In this document: one piece after another, positions 8,011 to 24,000 of the stretch | Position numbering within the stretch: the stretch's first letter is position 1 | Layout: the number at the start of each line of letters is the position of its first letter | NCBI GenBank assembly: GCA_000310025.1 | Contig: FN649752.1 | Location: 3,396,324-3,451,873 of the forward strand | Reading direction: 5' to 3' | Origin: Ectocarpus siliculosus | Taxonomy: Eukaryota > Sar > Phaeophyceae > Ectocarpales > Ectocarpaceae | DNA: 55,550 bases | The notes under the pieces: generated by a model | Seen by the model: the letters and a program-made list of their open reading frames with translations, nothing else | The model's database searches: none | Told to the model about the DNA's origin: nothing | Made by a program: the position numbers and the translations under genes

Positions 8011-9086
8011 CCTCTTCGTTCTTTACTTCCAATCTCCGGGGTTGCAGGATCAACCGGTGAAGGGAAACGCGTGTACCCGCCGAGGGCGCGGCGTGTACCG
8101 GCTACTACAAAATGTAGCGAGTGGAATGTGGAAAATCTCAAATCTACCGCCGTATCTACTACATACTGCTGTTGCAGTAGTCTACATCGGAAATGTTGGG
8201 CGGACCGCCGCCCGTGTGAGGGCTTCGGTGTGCAACGACGCCCGCGTAGATAGACCGGGCGACAACAGGGCGACAACAGCAGCAGTCGGCGGGATGTTGG
8301 CTCGCCACGAGGTCGGCAAGAAGTTTCACACCTTCCTGCTTCCTACAAACCGGGAGTTTTTTTGAAGTAGAAGAAGAAGGTCCGCCTCTCGGCTCTGCCC
8401 CTGCTGCTGCGTGTGTCTGCGATTTTTATTGACCGCTGTGTCGGGTCGGTCCGACAGCAGAAGCTAAACTGATGCGATCACGCAGCGAATTGCTCACGAG
8501 AGCTCACGAGAGCCCCGGGGTCCTGGAATGTTTGCCCACGTAGGGCGCTCACACAACTGGCAAAATATACGCACACGAGAGGGAAAAGCGAACACTGCTG
8601 CCTCTGTTTGCAAAGGACACGATGCACACACATGCACACACACATGTGACGAAATGTACTCACAAAAGAAGGAAAGCTGCCTTCCCCCAAAGAGACAAAA
8701 AACTTCAGAGCTTACTTTTGTACACCACCATCACTCACGTTCCACACCACCCGCGAGCCGGACCCCGCCGAGAGCAAGAGGAAGGGCCACCAGCAATGGC
8801 TTCGCCTTCCTCAACAGAACCATGTTTCCCTCTAGCACGTCCAAACCAATCAACGACGCGACTGGCCAGGGCAGAGACACGCCAGACGCACCACAAACAG
8901 CAATCACACACTCAACTTTTTCACGGGGGCTCCGGCAGTTCAGTTCTAGCATCATCCCCCCAGACATGAAACCTGCGCTCTGCGCTGCACGCTGCAGTTG
9001 CTGCTTTAGGTGGATTCAAACCAATGCTGTGTGCTGGGCTGCGAGGTACTGCGTCTGTCTTCGCGTGCACGAGCTAGGCGATTGTC

Positions 9087-12000
9087 ATGCCTCGGACGTG
9101 GCTCTTGTTTATGGCCGTGTGGTCGTTTGAGAGGAGCGTTTGTTGGGGCTGGTCTTTCCTCGTGCCAATAGCGGCACCGGCAGCATCGGCAGCATCTACG
9201 GCACGGGTAGCCATGTCCGCCACGACAATGGATACGCAAGCCCTAGCCCTACCGTCGCTGCCACCGTCCTCCGTTTACGTGAACCTTCCATTCTGCCGAC
9301 GGCGCTGCTTCTATTGCGACTTTCCGATCAAGGTGCGAATCACACGCTGAGGCGACGGATACATACTTTATTATTCCTTAGTACTGCTGCCGCTGCCGCT
9401 TTCTTTGAACCATTGAATAGCCCATGCGGTTGCGTTTTCGTGCGCAACTGCTGCGCATTGCGGGTACACTGCTGTACACTGCTGTACATGCACTGCACTA
9501 CTCTGTTATAGGAGACAGGTTGCGCCTGTTAAACCAAACAAGAGAGGGCGAGACGGACATTATCTGTGCCAGTACGCCATGCGCATTCTTACCGCAATCC
9601 ATACTCTAGAGATAGGCACGTTGTAGTTGCTGCTGAATGGCAATCAATCAACACTTGAAGACTTGAAGCAGTTTTTTTTTTTTTCATTAACAGCAGTAAA
9701 TGCACTCATACCATCGGTCAGTGCCCAATTTCACCCCCGGTGCGTCCGAAAAGGCGCAGGGTATACCCTGCCGTGACTACTTTTCTCAACAACTGTACCC
9801 TGTTTTCGGAAATGTACCCTGTCCTGACGGGAAATCGTGAAGATTCAGTACGTATGTGAATCTGTGGTTTGTGGAGGCGTGTTGGAATTCGGAAAAGCGG
9901 GGATCGAAGAAAAATAGAGACAGCCTCGGTGTCAGAAAGTTTTTGTGCTCTCGCTGGGCGAGAGACAAGCAAGTGCGTTTGAGAGAAGGAGAGGAGTAGC
10001 AGATATAGCAGCTTTGAGGAGCAGCAAGCACGGGGTGCCGCCTAGGATTTGATCGATTTCGGGATGGACGGCAATGATGGGCAACCGGCGAGGGCGAACG
10101 GCGCCGCGGGCGTCGCGGCGGCCAGTCAAGGCAGTCCGGCGGACGGCAGTCACCCAAGCTCGGCCGCCGGTGGCGGGGACGCCCAAAACAGGCAGCAGCA
10201 GCAACAGCAACAACAACAGGCAGCAGCAGAATCAGCAGCAGCAGCAGCAGGTCAGGTGCCGCAGCAGCAGCAGCAGCAGCAGGATCTCCAGCACGGCCAC
10301 CCGCAGCAACAAAACGACGGCGGTCCGGCGGCAGCAATTCCGCCGCCGCCGCCCATGATTCACGGAGCCCCCCAACCTCAGCTGATGCAACAGCAGCAGC
10401 AACAGCAGCAGCCGCAGCAACAGCCCCAGCAACAGCAGCAGGAGGGCAGTGGGAGTAATCCGAACCTCTTCTCGCTGCTACAACAGCTCGTGACCCAGGG
10501 TAGTCGCCAGCAACAACAGATTCGGTCTCTCCAGGATGTGGTCGTAAATTTGACCGGCATCCGGCAGCCCGCCCAGGGCGCCGCGGCCCACAACAATGCC
10601 CGGGATGGCCCCGCCTACAACAATAGTCAGTCAGTAGTCCTCCCCCTGGTCCAAGCGCCGCCGCCGCCGCCGCCGCAGCAGCAGCAGCAGCAGCAACATC
10701 CTCACCAGCAGCAGCAGCACCAGCAGCAGCACCAGCAGCAACAACCTCACCACCAGCAGCAGCAGCAGCACCGGCAGCAGTCGCAGCCGCTACCATTGCA
10801 ACAACAGTATCAACACCAACAACTCCAGGCCTACCCCCACCAGCACTACCTCCAGTCCTCGTCGGCCGCGCCCCAGGGATACCAACAGCTCGCGAGCATC
10901 CCGGGGGCCGCGCCTGTTTACAATGCCCATCGGCTGAAAGAAGCCCAAAAGCTGGAGGGCCGCACGTGGGAAAAAGATGGCCAAGCGGCCCTGTACCTAA
11001 TGCGAGGTGCTACCTTCTCGCCCGTCGTCATGACGGGAGGCGAATTCGACCACATCATTCGTGACGTGGCCCACCCGCAACCGGGCCTGCACGCGCTGCT
11101 TACCTTCGGCGCCATCGACATTGCGGCGTTCTCGCCGCCGCGCCCCCCGGGGGTAGCGGCGGTGACACGCACGTTCGACGTGCATCTCGACACCTTCGTT
11201 CGCGTCCTGGAAGTCGTCATCAAGGACGGCATGGCGGGCGCCTCGCCGGCCGGGGCCGACAGGGTTGGCCTGTTTTTCCGGGAACTTTTCAGGATCTCCG
11301 AGGACCTCCGCCACTACACTTCCCGCCACTGCGCTGAGTTCAGGGGCTGCGAGGCCGACGTCTTCGCCAGGTTCAAGCAAGACGCCAACCTCGATTGGGC
11401 CGATTGCGTCAGTCGTCTGACCACCGAAGCTAGGGCGCTCCGGCAGCGCAACACCCTCTCCCCTCCACCCCCCAATACGGTGGGGGCGATCCAAGTCCCG
11501 CAGTTCTCACGGACGTTGATCCTGATTGCGGAGGGTACGGCTTCTTCGATGGTGGGTCTCCTGCAGGGGGGTCTAGCCCGTCAGCAGCAGCCAAAATCGG
11601 CCGCCGCTAGCACCAAGCGCAAAGCTACTTCACAGGGTCAACCTGCCCGCACCCCCGCCGCACCAGTCCCATACTCTTCCACGGCAGCCGCCAACGCGTT
11701 TGCACAGACCGTTGCCGCCTGGAACACGCCCGACAACGAGTGCTTCTACACGTGGTCGGGCACGTCCTGCACACGCCCGCGGTGCGAGAAGGGGCACACC
11801 CAGCGGCACCCGTCACTCCTGCCTGCTGTTCCTCCCCCCCCCCCCCCTCCGCCCGCTCCGCCCGCTCGTGCCCCCCCTGCCCCGAGAGCGACACAAGCAC
11901 CAGTCGCGAGGTACAGTCATGGAGGCGGCCGGGGAGGAGGAGCAGCTGGAGGAGGAGGAGGTGGAGGGCGCGCGGGAGGAGGCCGTGGCGGTACCAATCC

Positions 12001-15000
12001 GTGACGGTGCGGGCCCCACTTCCACGAGGTGGGGCCGACAAGGGGGGGTGGCGAGCTTGGCACGGGAGCGAATGCCTTTGCGGACAGCAGAAGGACAGTA
12101 GCGAGCGTGGGAGTTCCCCTTCCCGGGTCGGTGGCACCCGCTGTGTTTTACGGTGAGAGCATGAGTTGCGAACCTGTAATTTCCCATACTGTCAACTGTT
12201 TGGATTCGTTTTCACCCTGTATAGTGGCGGACACCACTCACGCCAAAACGTCAAAAACAGTAGCTACGGGGGCGGACACCCCCGGCGCTAAGTACGGGTC
12301 ATATAACACACAAGCGGAGGACACCGCACTGGTGATAGATAAGTCACAACTATTGGCGGACACCAATTATACGATATTGACACATACCGGGCGGACACCC
12401 GGTGTGAACATGCATTACCCTCACTCCCGCATACGGTGGACGCCGTTCCCGCGATAAACGCACTATCGGGAAACCCATCACTCCCGCAAACGGTGGACGC
12501 CGTTCCCGCGAAAAACACACTAACGGAAAACCTATTGGCGGACACCAATAGCGGGATCAATAACTGCTCTGCCTTGCACTCCACGAAGACTGTGGTGGAC
12601 GCCACACGTGCTGTACAATGCAATGCAGTCGCCTCGGGGGAGGACACCCCGGGCGAATATAATTGGCCCCGCGGCACGCAAGCGGTGGACGCCGCGAGCG
12701 TTGTCGGTAAACAAACAATACTGGCGGACACCAGTAGTGTGCAATGTGAACATGCATTACCCTCACTCCCGCAAACGGTGGACGCCGTTCCCGCGGAAAA
12801 CACACTAACGGAAAACCTATTGGCGGACACCAATAGCGGGTTCAATAACTGCTCTGCCTTGTACACCACAAAGACTGTGGCGGACACCACACGTGCTGAA
12901 CAATGCAATGCAGTCGCCTCGGGGGAGGACACCCCGGGCGACCATTATTGGCCCCGCGGCACGCAAGCGGTGGACGCCGCGAGCGTTGTCGGTCAACAGA
13001 AAGTACTGGCGGACACCAGTAGTGTGCAGAAGGACATACACGGGGCAGACACCCTGTGTAAGAATTTGTCAGTCACACAGCCCCGATTGGCGGACACCAT
13101 TCGCGGGAACGACACGGAATTGGCGGACACCATGACCGTTTCAAAAGCTACCCCGGGGGCGGACACCCCGGGGGATGCATCGTTGGCACGTAGGGCACTA
13201 GCGGCGGACACTGCTAGGGCCGCTGACATCACAAAAGTAATGCGACAGGGTTGCGGGTCGAATTGAGCGATTTCTCACTTTGGGGCGGGGAAAGAACCTT
13301 CGGCCCTAGAGAGTCCAAAAAAGACAACCTTTTCGAGAAACTTAAAAACTCTGACCGATAGACTCGAGGCACAGAGAAGCATGCTCGCGTCAAGCCTACA
13401 ATCGCTAGACGAGAAACAATGTATCATTCGGAAGATGGCGGATATTGGTAGTGATTTGGTAAAGCTCCACGATGGAAGGCTGGGAGACGTCGCGAGGGAA
13501 TCGGCGGCACTTTGGTGTCACCGCCGTTGGACGTGAGCGACGTCAAGCAGTATTTCGGAGAGGAGAAGGGTTTCCCGGGCATGGATGACCTCATTGAGAT
13601 AGTCGGTGAAGGAGCCCCTGCCCCCACTCTAGTATCGCAGCAAAATCTCAAGAAAGCCTTGGCATACGGCAACCACCGTAGCGTAGACGATCACCAAACA
13701 CAAGTGTGGGAAAAACTATGCGACGATGTCAAGCGTAATAGGTGTATCGTCCTGAGAAAGGCGAACGCATCGGACGTACGTGGGACTAGAGTAGCTCCGT
13801 TGGGAGCGGTCCCAGGAAAAAAAGTGAGGATCATCAACGACTTCTCTTTTGACCCAAGCACAAGCAAGGGGTCAAAAGGTGGGCTCAACAAAGATACCAT
13901 CATGTCTGGAGTACCACGTTGCCTGTGCGGCGAAGCGCTACCAGCTTTCCTCGAGGAGCTCACTAGCCTACGAGTAACATGGCCTGACAAGAGAATTCTC
14001 GCAGCCAAGGCTGATGTCACCTCAGCGTTCAGAAATGTTAGGATTTCACCAGATCATGCTCACAACTTTTGCTACGTGATAGGAGACGTGCTAGTAGCGG
14101 ATCTACGGCTGACATTTGGCTGGGCAGCTTCACCAGGTTTGTGGGGTGTGTTAGCCTCCGCTGCAGAGCTCTCGCACCGCAACACGTCCCTCGCGAACGC
14201 CCGACTACTACCAGAAGGAATCGCAAGTGATGTCTCACGTCAAACTAAAACCCCCTTGGGAAAAAGGCTCCCCAACCCCAATACCATCGTCGGCAGGCGT
14301 ACAACCGCATAGAGGCGGGGGACCCGCGGACGATTTCTTGGCCAGGGTCTACGTTGACGATTTCTTGCTCACGAAGGTCCAGCATGACCCCACAGACGAA
14401 TCGGCACTCATTGCTTCCGCCTCGCTAGCTTCGGACCATGTCAGACTGTTTGGCGAGGGAGAAGTCGGAGAAACCCCCATTCTTGTCCCGAAAAAGAGCA
14501 CCGACTGGGACACGGTCATAGAGGCCCTGGGGTACACCATAGACACGCATGATGGCAGAATTGCAACCACTCCCGAACGGGTAAGCGCGATCCGGAACAC
14601 CTTAGAGGTAGCTTGGCCCCACGATAGGAAGAAGGCCAGTGTTCAAGAAGTCCTCAGCATTGCAGGAAAACTCTGGAACCTCACCTATGTCATCAGGGCT
14701 GGTAGATACTTTGTGTGGCAACTGCTCCGCCTATCGGGTCTGCATACGCAAGCCAGTCGACACACACGTTCTCGACGTCTAATAGTGGACTTTGGTAGAG
14801 AGTTCCACGGCGATATCGCCTTCTGGAAGTGGGCCATCAACCAGCCCCTGGCCCTTCGAGGGGAGTCCCTCAGCGCATCGTTCCTACTCCACGTTAAACG
14901 AGCACCATCACGCCACTACCTCTCAGACGCTAGCTTCACAGCGATTGGCGGCTACTGCCCCGAACTAAAGACTTTCTGGAGATACACGATCGAACCCTCG

Positions 15001-18000
15001 CTGTCTGCGGAGCTCAAGCGCAAGGCGCAGGTGAAGGAGACGTCAGACATTACGATCAATCTGTTAGAACTCACGGGCATGTTCATGACGCCGTGGGTAG
15101 TCCAAATGATCCTGAAAGACAGACCCGTAGAAGAAGGGCAGTCGGTGTTGATGCGCGGGGACAACGTGTCAGCCGTCAGCTGGACTAACAGGTGTGGGGG
15201 GTCGCGTGACAGGCGCGCTAGCCTCATAATGAGACTCATGGGTAGGATGGAGATTTCTTGCGGCTGGTGCCACGTGACCAAGCACATCTCTGGTCGAAAG
15301 AACACACTCGCGGACGGGATCTCACGTTGGGAAGAAAACGAGATCGCCGCCAACGTAAGAATGCTCACGAAAGACTCAGGGTGGACACAGCAGGATATCG
15401 GGGAAGAGGGACGAGCGTTGCTCAGCATTATTCTCCAGAAGAAATTACCGAAAGATAGTCTGGACGACTCGGTATGGGACATTATGGTCCAAGGAACAGA
15501 AAATATCTGACACGGCAAAGAGATCGAAGGTAGGGCAGTAGGACACCGCTCCGCGTTCTGGTCGATCAACGAATTATCAAAGGAATTGAGATATCGAGGA
15601 GACTGAAGCGGCGGACCCGCATCACACTCACGGTTTCATGACGCCTTGATAAAATGGATAGCCGGGGGAGGCAGAGTTGGTTTGGACGACCAAGTTTTCT
15701 GATCTCCCCTCAAGCCAGTTGGGGCTATCCCGGGTTCGGCATGAATTTGTCGTACCTTAGAATGGAACCCCGAAATGTTCGCTTTCCTTACGCTATGAAA
15801 GCCCGGTGATCGAATATCAGGAACACAGGGAAAAGATGGCCGGGGAGGCACGGGCGACGAGGGGAGCGGTTGGTCAACGCACTCACCTTCGGGTCGTTGG
15901 GAAGTGGTACCAATAAGGTGTATCAACGGATGTGGAACACGTGGAAGGAGGCTCGAGCAGGGGCGGGTTCGGGCCCGTGGCTCAGCGAGAGCGATGGGGT
16001 GGAAAGTGCAGTGCGTGAGTTGTCTGTGTTCATGGCTTGCCGGTGTTTCGGTCACAAGAACCAGAGTCGGACTATTCGCGGGTATCTGTCAGCCATCAAG
16101 TACTTCCATAAGATGCACGCAGGATGGGAGTTGCCCACTTCGCATTTCCAGATCCTTGCCATGTTGAAGACCATTGATAGGGTCCACGCCAATACGCAGA
16201 CAAAGCCTAAGATTAGGAATCCACTTTCGTGGGACATGCTAGCAGCTGGAAAGAGCGTGGTCGAACATTCGGGAGAATCAGGGAAGTTGATCTGGTGTGG
16301 ACTTGCCCTCTCGTACCTGCTGATGTGCCGAGCTTCAGAAATCTGGGCGGACGACTCGGGGCTCGTGCACTCAGATTTTTGCCTGACAAGAGGAGACCTG
16401 GGTTTCTTTTGCGGTCCGGTAAGGGTTGCATGGGCAGACAGAAGGCAGGCTAGCCGAGTGGAAGTCACGTTCAGAGCGTCAAAAGCAGATCAGAAACGTT
16501 TGGGATCAACCGTCACTAGATCAGGAGAGGCGTTGAAGGTGTTACTGGGTCTGTTAGATCTGCACCCCGAGCTCGGGAGTCACGCGCCGTTGATGCAATC
16601 GTGGACACAAGACAGGTGGAAGGTTATTTCGAGAGCAGAGGCATCTAGACACCTCAGGTTACTCGTGAGCGTGGCGGGTAGAGACCCGCAGAAGTATGCA
16701 TTGCATTCAGGAAGGATCGGGGGGGCCACGCACCTAGCAAGTATGGGGGCGTCGGTAATCCAGATTCAGAGAGCCGGGAGGTGGAAGTCATCGGCTTTTA
16801 TGGTGTACGTTAGGGCTGGGGGTGAAGGAGCGAAGTTCGTGTTTCAGGCCCTTACGGAACCCGAGGAGTGACCGGGGAGCGGCTTCGGAGGAGTAGGTCA
16901 TCGGACATGCCTAATGGAGTAAGATATGTTTAGGCCAGAGGCCGAAACAATAGTAATGATAGGAGGGCAATCTTGGGAAGTTTGCAACGGGTTAGTCCGA
17001 TAAGAGAACGTTGGGAGCAAGACGGCATTTTACCTGCGCTCTCAATTTGTTTCATGTGTCTTGGTTTTTCTTTGGTTGCCTGCAGAAAAATAATCCAGAA
17101 TTCTTGAGCAAACATAAAGAGACCCTTTCATTAATCATTTCCCCCGCAGGATTCTTCCCAACTCCTTTTCCCCTCCAACCATGGGATACCAGATGGCGAA
17201 TCTTCCCGCCGAATAACAACCATGGCAACGGGGCAGGAATCAGTTTCCGACCCTGCGAAACAACACCAACCATCACCTCTTCGGCTCTAAATTAACAATG
17301 GCCGGGCAATAAAAAAAAGAAAAACAGCACAATTGTTCCGTTTGGGAACATGGACACACGCGTACAATACCCGTGGACTACTGCTTGCTTCAGTCTATAT
17401 GCGAGATGCACGGGTCACGCTATGAAAGCGAGACCGATCCAGCATGGTTGACATGCATATATGCATGTATGTGCCAATGTGTGGCCCTGTGCTGGCGGCG
17501 AACTCGCGCCCGCAGATAGGGTGGAGGGGAGAGGCAGGACCAGCACACACAGACACACCCTTGACATCAATCACGCACACACGAGTCTTATCGTTACTCT
17601 AGCAGCAGGACACTGCTGTGTCGTCCAACTCAATCACTCTCCCTGTCGGTGGAGAGAGGAAAGAGTGCTCGCGTTGTATTTCATCGGCTCATCCCGCTGA
17701 AGCCTGACGTCTTCTTACTACATTGATTGATTGGTCGGCTTGGTTGGCTGGTAAGCGTGACCGCTGCTGCTACAGCAGTAGTTCAAGCAAGAAACACATC
17801 GCATTTGAGACACAACGGACAACACACGCACGCACACACGGCATATCGCAATCGAGACACAACAGACAACCCCCTCATTTTGTTTTCTTTTTCCGTGTGA
17901 TTTGTACTCTATTCTTGTTTTGTTTCCCCGCGGCGTCGTATGTGCCGGGTTTTGCGACCACCGGCTCCCCATTTTTGTGGACTATAGAGCTAATGTGAGA

Positions 18001-21000
18001 GAAACAACAACAACAACAACAACAACACGCACGCACACATGCATATATAAGCATGTCAACCATGCTGGATCGGTCTCGCTTTCATAGCGTGACCCGTGCA
18101 TCTCGCATATAGACTGAAGCAAGCAGTAGTCCACGGGGTATTGTGCGTGTGTCCATGTTTCCAAACGGAACAAATTGTGCTGGGGTATTGCCCGGCCATA
18201 TTGTTGATTTAGAGCCGAAGAGGTGATGGTTGGTGTTGTTTCGCAGGGTCGGAAACTGATTCCTGCCCCGTTGCCATGGTTGTTATTCGGCGGGAAGATT
18301 CGCCGTTTGGTATCCCATGGTTGGAGGGGAAAAGGAGTTGGGAAGATTCATGATTGATGAAAGGGTCTCATTTCCCGTCAGGTCAGGGTACATTTCCGAA
18401 AACAGGGTACAGTTGTTGAGAAAAGTAGTCACGGCAGGGTATACCCTGCGCCTTTTCGGACGCACCGGGGGTGAAATTGGGCGCTGACCGATGAAATGAG
18501 TGCATTTACTGCTGTTAATGACTGTGTACCCAGGTGTGTCGCTTTTTGACCAGGGTATACCCTGTTGTGTCGTTTTCCCTTTTTTTTCCTCTTTCACTTG
18601 TATAATAAGAGGGAGGGGAGGGAGAGAGAGACAGACAGGCAGAACGAGACAGAGATAAAGAGAGGGAGGAAGAGATAAGGCATACATACATGTACTGCTG
18701 TACAGTGGTGGGACGTTTTCGCTGCACGTCCTCCGTCGTCTTCCCCCTTTATATATTCTCCCTTCTTCATCCCCTCGCTGCCTCGGCAAGGTTTTGCTTA
18801 GGCATGACCCAAAGCGAGGGGGGGGGTCTTTCTAGCGAGCAGGGCTAGACTCATCCTCAAGGGACCGATACCTTCTTGCTACGGCGCACCCGCCGCAAGG
18901 CGTGCGTAGTGGTGGAGTTGGGTCGGCACTGGTGCGTCAGGTACAAAGGTGCAGATGCGCGGGCCTCGAGGCCGTCGGTGCAGACAGCAATGCCCATCTC
19001 GTTTTTGTGCGCGGAGGCAGACGCCATCAGAAAGGTGGACGGGCACTATGTACACGGCCCTATGCTTGCTAGAGGGAGCTGTACTGTCTCAGTAACCTGG
19101 TTTTGCCATCAAATGAGGAGGGGACAGGTGGTGACGAGCTGACTGGGCTGGTTGACCCTTCGGCGCGAGAATTTTCAGACCAAGAACCCTAAGTGCAACG
19201 AGGGAGAAAGCGAGGCACCGACTGGGAAGGACAGCAACGAGAGCGTGTACGAAGCGGAGCGGGTCGAATTTGGTCGTGCTAGGACTGGCCACAGCGACAC
19301 CGGAGAAGCGGCACCGGAGCAGCGGCACCGGAGCAGCAGTGGAACCGGAGCATGCGGACGGCATCGAACCGTGTCGCACGGACAAACATCTCTTGTGTTG
19401 TCAAATATTTTCCGTTTTTTTTTCCTGAATATAGGTGTTAGGTGTGTGTAATGACGTCACTGGTTTTGTAGAGAGACGCGGCAGAGATGGCGCGGATAAC
19501 CCGGGTGCCTTAATTGTGTACCTGCATCGTGGAAGACCCCTTCAATGTGGAACGATTCCTAGTCAGTGCCGATGTTTACACTGCTGTGTCTAACACAGAT
19601 GATCTGGATAGATTCGGGCGATTGTCAATTGCAATGATGGCTTTGGTTGGTTGTTCTTCTTCATTGTATGTCCACGGGACCATTTTGACAGCACTTCAGA
19701 CAGCAGCTGCATGCCCCGAGCTTGTTGTGCACCATACACCATGGTGTTATTTTGTACAGACAGCACTTCAGACAGCAGTAAGTACGCTGTAGTCGACAAA
19801 CATTCATTTTGGTGAAGTGCGGGACAAGGGGGGTGATGCCGCCTGCTGTAGTCGAATTGTAGTGTGTGGGCGTGTAGTTCAGTTGTGAGCACGCAAACGT
19901 GCTGCAGGGATTGTAGGTGTACCTCCTCGGGCTTGGGTACCCTTTTCTTGCTAATAGTGTGCGTGTTCTTTAGATCTTCTGATGGCTTTAGCATTTTTGT
20001 GACCACGGGCCGAGTCTTTGCTAGATTTTGGGATTAGCAACTGACACGAGTTTAATGTGAAGAAAAACAACAACAACAACAATAGAGTTTTTAGCGCCTT
20101 TTGCCTCTTGCTCCGTGTTGCCTCGTCTGGTAGACTATTACTGTAATTAGTACATAGTCTATGCGTAGTCTCGACGAGGAGAGAGGAAGCAGGCCGTGCA
20201 CCTACAAATCTTGTGGATACATGTGGGCCTCTCGTGATGGCTTTTCTATTGTACGGAGTGTGTTGTTTATCATTTTGAAGCGCATGGTCAGCCAAAACCA
20301 CAACCATGTCACCTTCGGGCGCGTGCAGTCTTGGCCTCTTTCCTGCCAAGCTTGTTCCTGCAACAGATACCCGTCCAAGGCGGTGTTTGTGACTGCTTGA
20401 CGTTCAGCGGGGTGACCTTCGCGGTGGTGTTAATTTATATATATATATATATTTTTTTTTTTATGCCAAAGATCGATTCGGCGCACAGCGTGGATGTGGT
20501 GACCTCCAGCGTCGAACCTCCAGTTGCAACTTCCGTCGTTGTTCCGACGTCAGGCATCGAGCTCGCCGGCCAGAGTGCAAAACCCGTTGGCGAGCGAATC
20601 ACCCTTCAGTGTTGCGTTACAACCGCCGAAGAGTTGTATTCATCACACAGAAACGACCCTTGACTGGCGGGTATACTAGCCGTCCAAGCTTCACGAACCG
20701 CCCACCATCTCCTCTCCACCCGCCATCCGCTCATGGTACTAACGCGTCAATGCATTCACTGCCTTGCTGACACTTCGCACTACACTCACGTGCCGCCAGG
20801 TGGTGGGCGACCGGCCCGGAGCAGCTGCGGCAGCCGCTAAGCCGTACGTCGACAACGTCGTTCGAGAGATACGCGCAACCGCCGCCGCCGCCGCTATCGA
20901 AGCTCCGAAATTACCTGCTCGAGGGGGAGCTGGCGGCGACGATACCATGGAGCACTCCGGCCGCGGCGGCGGCGTCAAGACGCTCTTTTTTGGTGGGGGA

Positions 21001-24000
21001 ACGCCTTCTCTCTGCCCCCCGGAGCTTGTGGGGTTGCTGATCGAGACGGTGCGGAATTGCTACGGTATTGCTGCCGGCGCGGAGATATCCATCGAGATGG
21101 ATCCCGGTACGTTTGACGAGGTATGTATGTCTACATACGCGAACGCGGTCGATGCGCCCGCGTCGTCCATGCCGGTTGGCTAGGCCAGCGAAAGACATAA
21201 TAAGCAGTTGCGTGGTGATGCTCGATCTCATGATAATTGCCCGTGAGCACTAAATCGCGGTAGACACGCAACGCGAAAGCTTTTGACGTGGGTGTGGGAC
21301 ATCACGGGCACCCCACACCATGTTTGATCGTCGAAAACACGGCAGTAGTATGCCATAGAACACGGTCGCATTTACCTCATGTGGTGCATGCATACCTGCT
21401 GCGCTTACTCTTTGGTGCTGTTGTTGCCTTGTCAAGATGATTCGAGCCGCGTTTGCTCTGCCCTTTGGGCCATTTTGTCTTTTGCGGCATTTGCGCCATA
21501 CTGTAACAGCAAGAACCACTTTCTTATTTCCCCGTCCACCTTTTGCCCATCCTGACCTCGGATAACGCAGAGCCCGACCCCAAGGGCTTGGTGCTCCATG
21601 TCTGTGGCGTTGGCTCAACTGTTCACCGCTCACTCCCCCGGACGTTCTCTCTGTGTCACTTGGCGTTCATCGCCCAGGCTCGGCTTGAGGCCTTTCTGGC
21701 TCTCGGGATAACACGGGTGAGCATGGGGGTCCAGTCTTTCGACGCCGGGTTGCTGGAGGCTTGCGGAAGGGCACACTCCCTGGCGGACGTGTACCAGGCG
21801 GTCGAGCTGTTGCGAAAGGCCAAGGTGGACAACTTCAGCATTGACCTCATGAGGTACTTCGCATTCTGCTTTGGGGTTGCAACCTGACCTCAGGAGAGTT
21901 CGACAGCTACAAAAGCTGTAGTGGCAGTTGTTGCAGCACCTGTTGAACGGCAGCTAGTGCTGAGAGGTTCGACGACGCCGTTTCCCGCTGAGGTGTTGAG
22001 TTGCTCGTTCCTGCCGTGGTGATGCCTGCGAAAAACTCGACCGCCCATACGATCTGGACCAAAACACGACACAAGAAATAACGTGAGAGAAACGTGTACC
22101 GCTTGAGCCTCGACTGAAAGTGCCCTGTACAAGATATATAACCCTTGGATTTTTGTATGATTCACGCGATCGCGTCTCGTGCGCGCCATCCCCGACCACG
22201 TTCTCGCCCCCGCCTGGATGCGTGCGAAACCGACGTTGTGTTTGTGTGAAGTGGACTGCCCAAGCAGACGGTCGAGCAATGGGAGCACACGCTGTCTGAG
22301 GCGATTGCCACGGGCGCCGCGCACATCAGCGTCTATGACCTACAGGTGACTTGGCTCGCATGTAACGGTTTCGACCACCGTGGTCTTAAGTTGTGGTAGT
22401 TGGCGCGTTGTTGTGGCGGGGCTCTTGCTTACATTTTCAGGGGGCTCAATTGTGGCCGGCGGGTCTAGTTGGATCGAATCCTTCCGGCACGTTGATCAGC
22501 GACGTGGTACACACCACCCAAGACATTTTTTTTCAAGATAGTGAGTAGAAGTGATGATTGCCAACTAAAGAGGAGCTTAGGTCTTAGCTCGCAGAGCGCT
22601 GGAGCCCTGGCGCTTTCCAGTGACCCATGCTGCAGTCATGGGGGTTAGGTCCGGCCAGCGCGTTCACAGCTGCGGTTCCACCTTTGAGTCGAAGCATGTT
22701 CCGTTTTCAGTTTCAGTTTCAGGTGTAGCCTGCCGAAGTGACGTGGTCACATGGGTGGCTATTCAAAACCACAAGCGCGCGCACCCCAGCCGGAGGCACA
22801 TTTTTGCCTGGTTGGCAGGCTGTTGAGGTTGACCTTCTCCCGACCTCTTGTTGCGGCCATACGCTTTACTTTTGGTTTCCAAGTTTTTTTTGTCAACGGC
22901 ACCCCCGTGTTGTGTTTGTTTGCACCCCAGCAAACCACTTGGAACCTGTCAGGTTCTCTTTTTTGTCAACCGCACCCCAATGCCATATTTTTTTTGCGCC
23001 CCAGCAAAATCACCGTGGAAGAACCTCTCTCGTTTTTTTTTTTTGTTCAACATCCCCGTGTTATGTTTTTTTGCACTAGAGCAAATCACTTGGAACCTGT
23101 CGCTTTTTTTTTTCCCTGATGGGCAGGTCGAGGCCGGCACGCCGTTCGGGCGGTGGTTTAGCCCCGGGGAGGCGCCTCTCCCCGAAGACGAGACTTGCGC
23201 GGACATGTACCGGACGGCAAGCGGAGTCCTCGGTCAGGCTGGCTACGACCACTACGAGGTGAGAATATTTCAATGATTCAATGCTACATACTTAAGGGTA
23301 CAATAAACGGAAGCGAAGGTGAGAGGATTTCAATGATACAATGCTATATTCTTGTAGTCTAAAGAGGGTACAATAACCGGAAGCGGCCCGAAGGACGCGC
23401 GTCCTGCTGTGTCGTGTGGCGGTACCGGAGGCCAAGATTTTGCCGATAGACGGAAATATAGCTGCCCTCTCTCTGACAAATCTCGGACCCAAGATTTTGC
23501 TGTCGGAATCATTCGAGCAAGCCTTTTGGCGCCGGAGAAGAGAGCGGAGACAGAGTCTTGCCGTCACGAGCAAATGCCCGCGAGATGTCCGCTCGAGGAA
23601 AAGGCACGCCGAGGAAAGACGCCTCAAAGCGACACGGCAACAGTGACCCCGAGACTAAAGAATGAGAGAACACACAGGACACGAAAATGGTGCCCACCGA
23701 GAGCATGATCGTTGGGGACGAGCGTGTACAGTAATAGTGCTGCTGCCTGACGTCGTTGCGCTGCCATCTAGTAGTAGAAGGTAGTACGATTGCGTTCTTG
23801 GCTCCCGTAGAGCTATCTCGTGGAAGCGAAGCGCTGCGTGTTTTGGTCGCGCGGTTTTGCCTGTCGTTGGTCTCTTTCGCTGGTGTCTCCCTGTGCGTGT
23901 GCTTCTACTGACGACGTCCGTACAAGTATGTACGCAGCTTCATGGCTCTTGGTTTTATGACAAAGACATATCCGCCGCAAGCTTGAGTCGGATTTCGAAG

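Follow-up and report, generated by a model that had tools for sequence, protein, structure and literature searches.

A string of hairpins with a near-constant loop and diversified arms opens the pol frame of a probable DIRS-like retrotransposon in Ectocarpus siliculosus

Introduction

A 55,550-nucleotide stretch of the Ectocarpus siliculosus genome (contig FN649752.1, positions 3,396,324 to 3,451,873 of the forward strand; hereafter the window, in whose numbering all coordinates are given) carries a retroelement in which a short core sequence recurs between flanks that differ from copy to copy and yet remain complementary. An initial annotation of this DNA, made from the letters alone, described 23 such cores, 21 of them with complementary flanks, and proposed that the fold is under selection. 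This locus therefore raises the question of whether the pairing exceeds what chance and coding would produce, where the array lies relative to the genes of the element, and what such a structure might do for its host element.

Results

The arms of the array vary but still pair, and the loop stays nearly constant

The array (12219 to 13219, forward strand) consists of 23 hairpins whose cores, counted from the first loop base, span positions 12228 to 13205 at spacings of 33 to 57 nt and conform to the consensus GG-[C/T/A][G/A]GAC[A/G]-C[C/T]. Stems are 3 to 9 pairs long. At least four contiguous paired positions flank 21 of the 23 cores if G-U pairs are allowed and 19 if only Watson–Crick pairs are counted, whereas control NRGACN sites elsewhere in the window carry a Watson–Crick stem of at least four pairs in only 3 of 408 cases. 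By arm position, pairing is found in 23 of 23 hairpins at position 3, in 21 at position 4 (G-U counted), in 15 at position 5, and in 12 at position 6. Positions 3 to 7 of all hairpins together form 79 pairs, compared with 38.5 ± 5.0 when the 3′ arms are re-dealt among hairpins, and none of 20000 re-deals scored as high, which bears out the original description of the flanks.

Part of the array is an internal duplication (12475 to 12743 and 12760 to 13028, forward strand; 94% identical), and thus the 23 cores are not all independent. The observed pairing of the 18 distinct flank pairs that remain was also matched in 0 of 20000 re-deals of the 3′ arms. The 10 distinct stem classes form 32 pairs against 15.0 ± 3.4 after re-dealing (0 of 20000 as high), and in seven of these classes an arm's own partner is strictly the best one available.

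Covariation was scored on 19 aligned hairpins, the other 4 of the 23 being omitted as repeats. The score was 0.519, compared with 0.158 ± 0.036 for shuffled and 0.06–0.17 for slid alignments, and two-sided changes occupied 29 cells, compared with 10.1 ± 2.5 in shuffles; measures that count only pairs or pair types in these hairpins were not above shuffles (5 versus 4.4 and 15 versus 13.4, respectively). Mean pairwise identity among the 23 cores is 0.82 in the loop, 0.34 at stem positions 3 to 7, and 0.36 further out, and these values are 0.83, 0.32, and 0.35 when the second copy of the duplication is removed. The unpaired loop is therefore constant, whereas the arms are as variable as the spacers and still pair. 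This is the within-molecule covariation around a near-fixed loop that had been proposed, and chance complementarity is ruled out by the re-dealing of arms, the control sites, and the covariation score.

The two positions that close the loop had also been said to change together. Among 249 hairpins in 16 loci they read C..A (156), T..G (54), A..A (32), T..A (5), or another combination (2), such that the coupling is real but not absolute; in the duplicated hairpin pair at 12596 and 12881, both closing changes occur together.

Folded as RNA, the first half of the array gives a z score of −5.0, with 0 of 100 shuffles as good, and in the minimum-energy fold of the full 1011-nt array longer-range pairs displace some of the hairpins. 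When 25 sequences were searched with a hairpin covariance model, it matched all 23 window cores (19 of which had built the model) as well as loci L016 and L025 to L028; the remaining matches at E values up to 1 fell at a single further place in the window, once in L037, and once in L040. Rfam covariance models gave four matches (E up to 1) between positions 9000 and 18000, none of them within the array, in which no known RNA family was thus recognized. Searches with the protein encoded by the array (no match at E up to 1) and of IMG/VR (no match) likewise yielded no relatives.

The host is probably a DIRS-like retrotransposon

The retroelement copy that bears the array runs from 9837 to 17117 (forward strand; both ends approximate), an extent that it has in common with a second copy, L076, and at its left end also with L077. 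A gag-like ORF (10049 to 12004, forward strand) is glutamine-rich, includes a CCCH-like motif recognized by eye and a Gly/Arg-rich tail, ends with UGA, and has no Pfam match. Downstream lies pol (13512 to 15510, forward strand), which encodes reverse transcriptase (RT) and RNase H and in the window copy occupies two frames (ORFs 13512 to 14312 and 14227 to 15510). There are at least 101 pol matches in the same genome, and one RT relative carries the label Ectocarpus sp. CCAP 1310/34. The YVDD motif is nearly invariant among RT relatives, and the predicted model of one relative (P0013) has structural matches to RNase H and to retroviral RT. A third ORF (15870 to 16871, forward strand) is tyrosine recombinase-like, with an HxxR...Y pattern seen by eye; its matches to Phage_integrase in Pfam (E 0.085, below cut-off) and to Cre (E 0.12) are both weak.

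The left and right ends of L076 showed no match over 10 nt, and neither inverted terminal nor split direct repeats were found there; the window's 152-bp inverted repeats fall outside the extent common to element copies. Both copies could be truncated. The DIRS-like class named in the initial annotation is therefore kept as probable: an RT with RNase H, as expected for the DIRS order, is present, but the recombinase is matched weakly and terminal repeats were looked for without success.

Inverted repeats in two sets lie on either side of the retroelement or after it (9684 to 9835 with 18370 to 18521, 97% identical over 152 bp; 17147 to 17468 with 18034 to 18352, 92% over about 320 bp), and they possibly belong to another element into which the retroelement inserted. 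Further downstream, an ORF at 20764 to 21183 contains the motif FFGGGTPSL, known from HemN/HemW-like radical SAM proteins, and may represent a host-gene exon.

Relatives carry arrays of two unrelated designs

The initial annotation had suggested looking for the array in related elements, and arrays are present there. A DNA search identified 12 close places, the window's own included, and 4 distant ones; the distant places (L025–L029, 67–73% identity) retain hairpins of the window type, here called design A, and the loop is nearly constant across families that are about 30% apart. In a sister subfamily whose RT is 57–65% identical, an array of unrelated sequence occupies the same position (design B; loci L037, L039, L040, and L068–L072, with L075 decayed). 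This array is clearest in a repeat of 120 nt, in which purine-rich spacers surround the palindromes CCAATA-CGTG-TATTGG, CTAGTG-GNAA-CACTAG, and CCCCG-TTAC-CGGGG. Paired changes are found here as well (CTAGTA..TACTAG in L070 and CCCTT..AAGGG in L068), and permutation of arms gave 91 pairs observed versus 58.6 ± 6.0, a comparison for which two bases were clipped per arm and which serves as support only. The design B hairpins have no loop in common.

In a midpoint-rooted RT tree, designs A and B form one clade with the protein relatives P0002, P0003, P0004, and P0006 (support 99/97), and the families at 53% identity fall outside it. No array was found in L066 and L067, which lie upstream of RT fragments near design A, or in L073, within the design B range, and none was seen in L041, which is partly N. 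Array-less before the RT are also the 53% families (L043, L045, and L053) and the families at 38% (L060, L061, L064, and L065); the sequence windows that reached a z score of 3 lay in the RT for L053 and in the gag-like part for L065, N-containing windows having been skipped (all of L062 and part of L063). The Gag-like ORF of three of four array-less families includes a CCCH-like motif, seen by eye, and the gag-stop-pol layout is common to three of the four: in L060, L064, and L065 the Gag-like ORF is followed by one stop and then by the next ORF in the same frame, whereas in L061 the frames differ. A gag-stop-pol arrangement in one frame may thus be common here.

Pairing was also assessed from protein sequence alone in 3 of 21 protein relatives, those with core motifs in the linker. 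Residues flanking the cores were codable by pairing codons more often than permuted ones in P0003 (p 0.0032) and in P0002 and P0003 together (p 0.0014), P0002 by itself not reaching significance (p 0.068), and the flanking residues of P0006 beat random residues of its own linker (10 of 12 points; p 5e-5). Two other RT relatives, the proteins P0005 and P0017, carry quite different tandem peptide repeats before the RT (VDPSGRQNFPHGK.. and QGHTAAD.., respectively).

The array is the coding start of pol behind a readthrough-type stop

The array had been placed in an interval between gag and pol. It is instead the N-terminal part of pol, which several copies keep as one open frame, rather than a spacer. 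The gag frame closes with UGA-CGG (12002 to 12007, forward strand), and 9 of 15 loci have the same TGA CGG at this place. A GC-rich hairpin begins at the eighth base after the UGA (12012 to 12036, forward strand; −23.4 kcal/mol, with 5 of 200 shuffles as good). This hairpin is present behind the UGA in six of eight design A loci and, in an altered form, in four of six design B loci (L068, L069, L071, and L072). Type II readthrough signals of viruses are described as a UGA followed by CGG or CUA with a 3′ stem-loop about 8 nt further on (PMC3542737). The design A stop and hairpin fit this description at the level of sequence; the design B stop reads UGA-CAA and lacks the CGG or CUA. Open-access literature on readthrough in tyrosine-recombinase retroelements gave only a retroviral match.

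The first core lies 224 nt past the gag stop (12004 to 12228). Between them, in frame with gag, is a conserved 23-residue peptide (12089 to 12157, forward strand), and similar post-stop peptides are present in P0002, P0003, P0006 to P0008, and the design B loci, such that conservation among relatives is found on both sides of the array, in this peptide and in the RT. Of the 22 steps between cores in the window copy, 21 are multiples of 3 and the exception is 35. Every listed spacing is a multiple of 3 in L010, L013, and L016, and some are not in each of L015, L018, L025, L026, and L029. Three of 15 loci (L010, L013, and L016) have a frame without interruption from the UGA to the far end of the array; it runs for 867 amino acids into the RT in L010 and reaches the locus end in L016, and in L012 it is open from within the array to the end. 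In the other 12 of 15 loci the frame is broken in or near the array, and frame changes in the window copy interrupt both array and RT.

Each core is flanked by residues whose codons are reverse complements of one another (Leu..Asn, Val..Thr, Thr..Val, and Gly..Pro). Synonymous shuffling, the codon-preserving control that had been called for, yielded far fewer stems: the L016 array has 16 stems of at least four pairs, compared with a mean of 2.6 and a maximum of 7 in 200 shuffles, and 14 perfect hairpins, compared with a mean of 5.8 and a maximum of 10 in 100 shuffles. The design B array of L037 has 12 perfect hairpins, compared with a mean of 3.8 and a maximum of 7 in 100 shuffles. An RT stretch of L016 gave 8 perfect hairpins versus 5.5 in the same test, and no comparable excess was seen on synonymous shuffling of RT parts and of the linkers of two array-less families. 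Because the stems of both L016 and L037 are lost on such shuffling, coding constraint alone is ruled out as their cause.

Stems and loops vary less than spacers among copies

Variation was measured on 12 aligned copies of the array and on 11 copies of the RT. Variants shared by at least two copies occur at 4 of 242 stem sites, compared with 36 of the 615 sites in spacers (p 0.007), and singletons at 23 and 94 of these sites, respectively (p 0.027). The 138 loop sites have 9 singletons and 6 shared variants, all six from one inverted hairpin: in L019 and L020, the core of the hairpin orthologous to that at 13160 is inverted between intact arms, a natural flip of the loop. By codon position, shared variants number 19/5/12 in spacers and 3/5/16 in the RT, and the spacers are thus without the third-position preference of the RT.

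Shared non-Watson–Crick stem pairs are G-U only (two pairs, no A-C), and singletons comprise 6 G-U and 8 A-C. Among 70 distinct hairpins, counted with at most one non-Watson–Crick pair among the first five, there are 13 G-U and 5 A-C pairs. Because singletons are evenly divided and, on aligned copies, the preference for G-U is confined to shared pairs, we make no claim from these counts as to which strand folds.

Across families, covariation at aligned positions is weak. Two-sided changes affect 2 of 23 pairs, a value equaled in 138 of 500 shuffles, and the RNAalifold covariation term is +0.14; paired cells and the covariation score in the same comparison beat at least 499 of 500 shuffles.

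Discussion

A string of hairpins is favored in one clade of these elements beyond chance and coding, and it exists there in two forms. Since the pairing exceeds both, selection on the fold, as the initial annotation had it, is upheld as the likeliest cause. With regard to function, our preferred reading, to which we give somewhat less than an even chance, is that selection maintains the array as a cis-acting RNA in a ribosome-poor stretch, where it would dock the element's own proteins for ribonucleoprotein (RNP) assembly or packaging. We infer that readthrough occurs and that the sense RNA folds: most ribosomes would terminate at a leaky gag UGA, those few that continue would make a flexible linker from the array, and because so few would traverse it, the array would remain folded on the majority of element RNAs, a string of short hairpins each displaying the near-constant GGAC loop. 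We further infer that the stems diversified so that arms find their own partners and template switching removes repeats less readily, and that the partners are element proteins, most likely Gag or Gag-Pol, for which the array would be a multivalent dock. Such docking would mark the full-length element RNA for RNP assembly and self-specific packaging, and we accordingly hypothesize a role in packaging by Gag. A different constant motif in the sister subfamily would be expected if each family recognizes its own RNA.

The array-less families and design B limit this reading. Because a CCCH-like Gag is present in three of four array-less families, the finger does not predict the array, which weakens the case for Gag binding; because the hairpins of design B differ in their loops, a single loop-binding protein could not act on both designs; and because the layout, like the CCCH-like Gag, is present in three of four array-less families, the array must be dispensable for the basic life cycle. 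Two other roles were set aside. Recombinase targets typically combine constant arms with a variable core, the opposite of the arrangement in the array. As for m6A, the consensus accommodates GGAC but not GGACG, which is how the T..G loops (54 of 249) read.

It is less likely, though a real contender, that the palindromes are without function and are maintained by mutation, with template switching during reverse transcription or replication copying one arm onto the other and tandem duplication spreading the product. The inverted core between intact arms in L019 and L020 is the scar that such a process should leave, the more distant families examined have no array, and repeat conversion is discussed for the coding palindromes of Nematomorpha mitochondria (PMC6649704). 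Copying of arms, however, should not preserve a loop, and here loops as well as stems vary less than spacers, the loop is nearly identical across families about 30% apart, and the cores keep to multiples of 3 in all but one step.

Of similar probability is a role for the array as an insulator against RNA decay, by analogy with the Rous sarcoma virus stability element (RSE), which lies directly downstream of gag (PMC2925335, PMC5580461). The array would in this case shield the gag UGA, whose several kilobases of following RNA would count as a very long 3′ UTR, from nonsense-mediated decay. Its start 224 nt past the stop suits such a role, selection of a fold without a fixed sequence would suit two unrelated designs, and a readthrough structure of TCV protects a reporter in a plant (PMC6277124). 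Yet three families of the same layout do without an array, the minimal RSE of 155 nt (PMC2925335) would leave 1 kb of diversified hairpins unexplained, and in the pertinent part of the carmovirus study unstructured sequence after the stop was protective as well (PMC6277124).

Less probable again is a pacing of translation, in which hairpins would slow readthrough ribosomes and thereby tune the amount of Pol, its co-translational folding, or readthrough itself; the array is in frame, codon-phased, and located between stop and RT, but single stems of 3 to 9 pairs are weak obstacles, a readthrough-type hairpin is already available at 12012 to 12036, and pacing does not call for a fixed loop. Finally, selection on the peptide (x-ADT-x in design A, DPxxxGE in design B), with palindromes as a by-product, is very improbable despite the aspartate that recurs at set positions of both designs, the retention of the frame in some copies, and the avoidance of second codon positions by shared spacer variants (5 of 36), because the flanking residues track reverse complementarity and not chemistry, the stems vanish under synonymous shuffling, and those variants show no third-position excess.

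Several known systems resemble the array in part. Bacterial CsrB and RsmZ sponge RNAs and engineered MS2 arrays with varied stems present constant-loop hairpins on varied stems for multivalent protein docking; unlike the array, they are non-coding or engineered and have unrelated partners, and no homology is implied. The RSV stability element is likewise an RNA element just past a gag stop with kilobases of RNA downstream, but it is retroviral, measures 155–400 nt, and has an experimentally proven function, and no hairpin array is described in the relevant passages of its reports (PMC2925335, PMC5580461). Coding palindromes of Nematomorpha mitochondria are also inverted repeats in translated sequence, but these are perfect repeats of up to 284 bp, and the passages on them describe no fixed loop or phased array (PMC6649704). 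The likeness to viral type II readthrough signals in gag stop, CGG, and hairpin position covers only 12002 to 12036, not the array, and the examples given in the pertinent part of that source are viruses (PMC3542737). In probable element class and host group, the nearest comparison is with the 15 Ngaro and 5 PAT-like DIRS families reported from Ectocarpus, in an article whose main text makes no mention of hairpins, secondary structure, stem-loops, palindromes, or readthrough (PMC12477816). No close counterpart was found in the open-access literature searched or is known to us: none of the cases compared here unites a large number of phased hairpins and a constant loop with arms that diversify yet pair, all within an open reading frame.

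As a bolder proposal, which we offer tentatively, this retrotransposon clade may have evolved a multivalent RNA barcode within pol, a series of distinct hairpins in two forms behind a leaky stop in a ribosome-poor stretch, for packaging its own RNA among co-resident relatives. The stop itself makes readthrough at UGA a candidate for the switch from gag to pol in a probable tyrosine-recombinase retroelement. A second array, differently built, at the same place in the sister lineage indicates that it is a folded string, and not one sequence, that is seemingly kept. The array thereby opens to test how retroelements may mark their own RNA and whether a ribosome-poor stretch behind a stop can serve as a structural site, and it also bears on how repeats may escape collapse through diversified paired arms.
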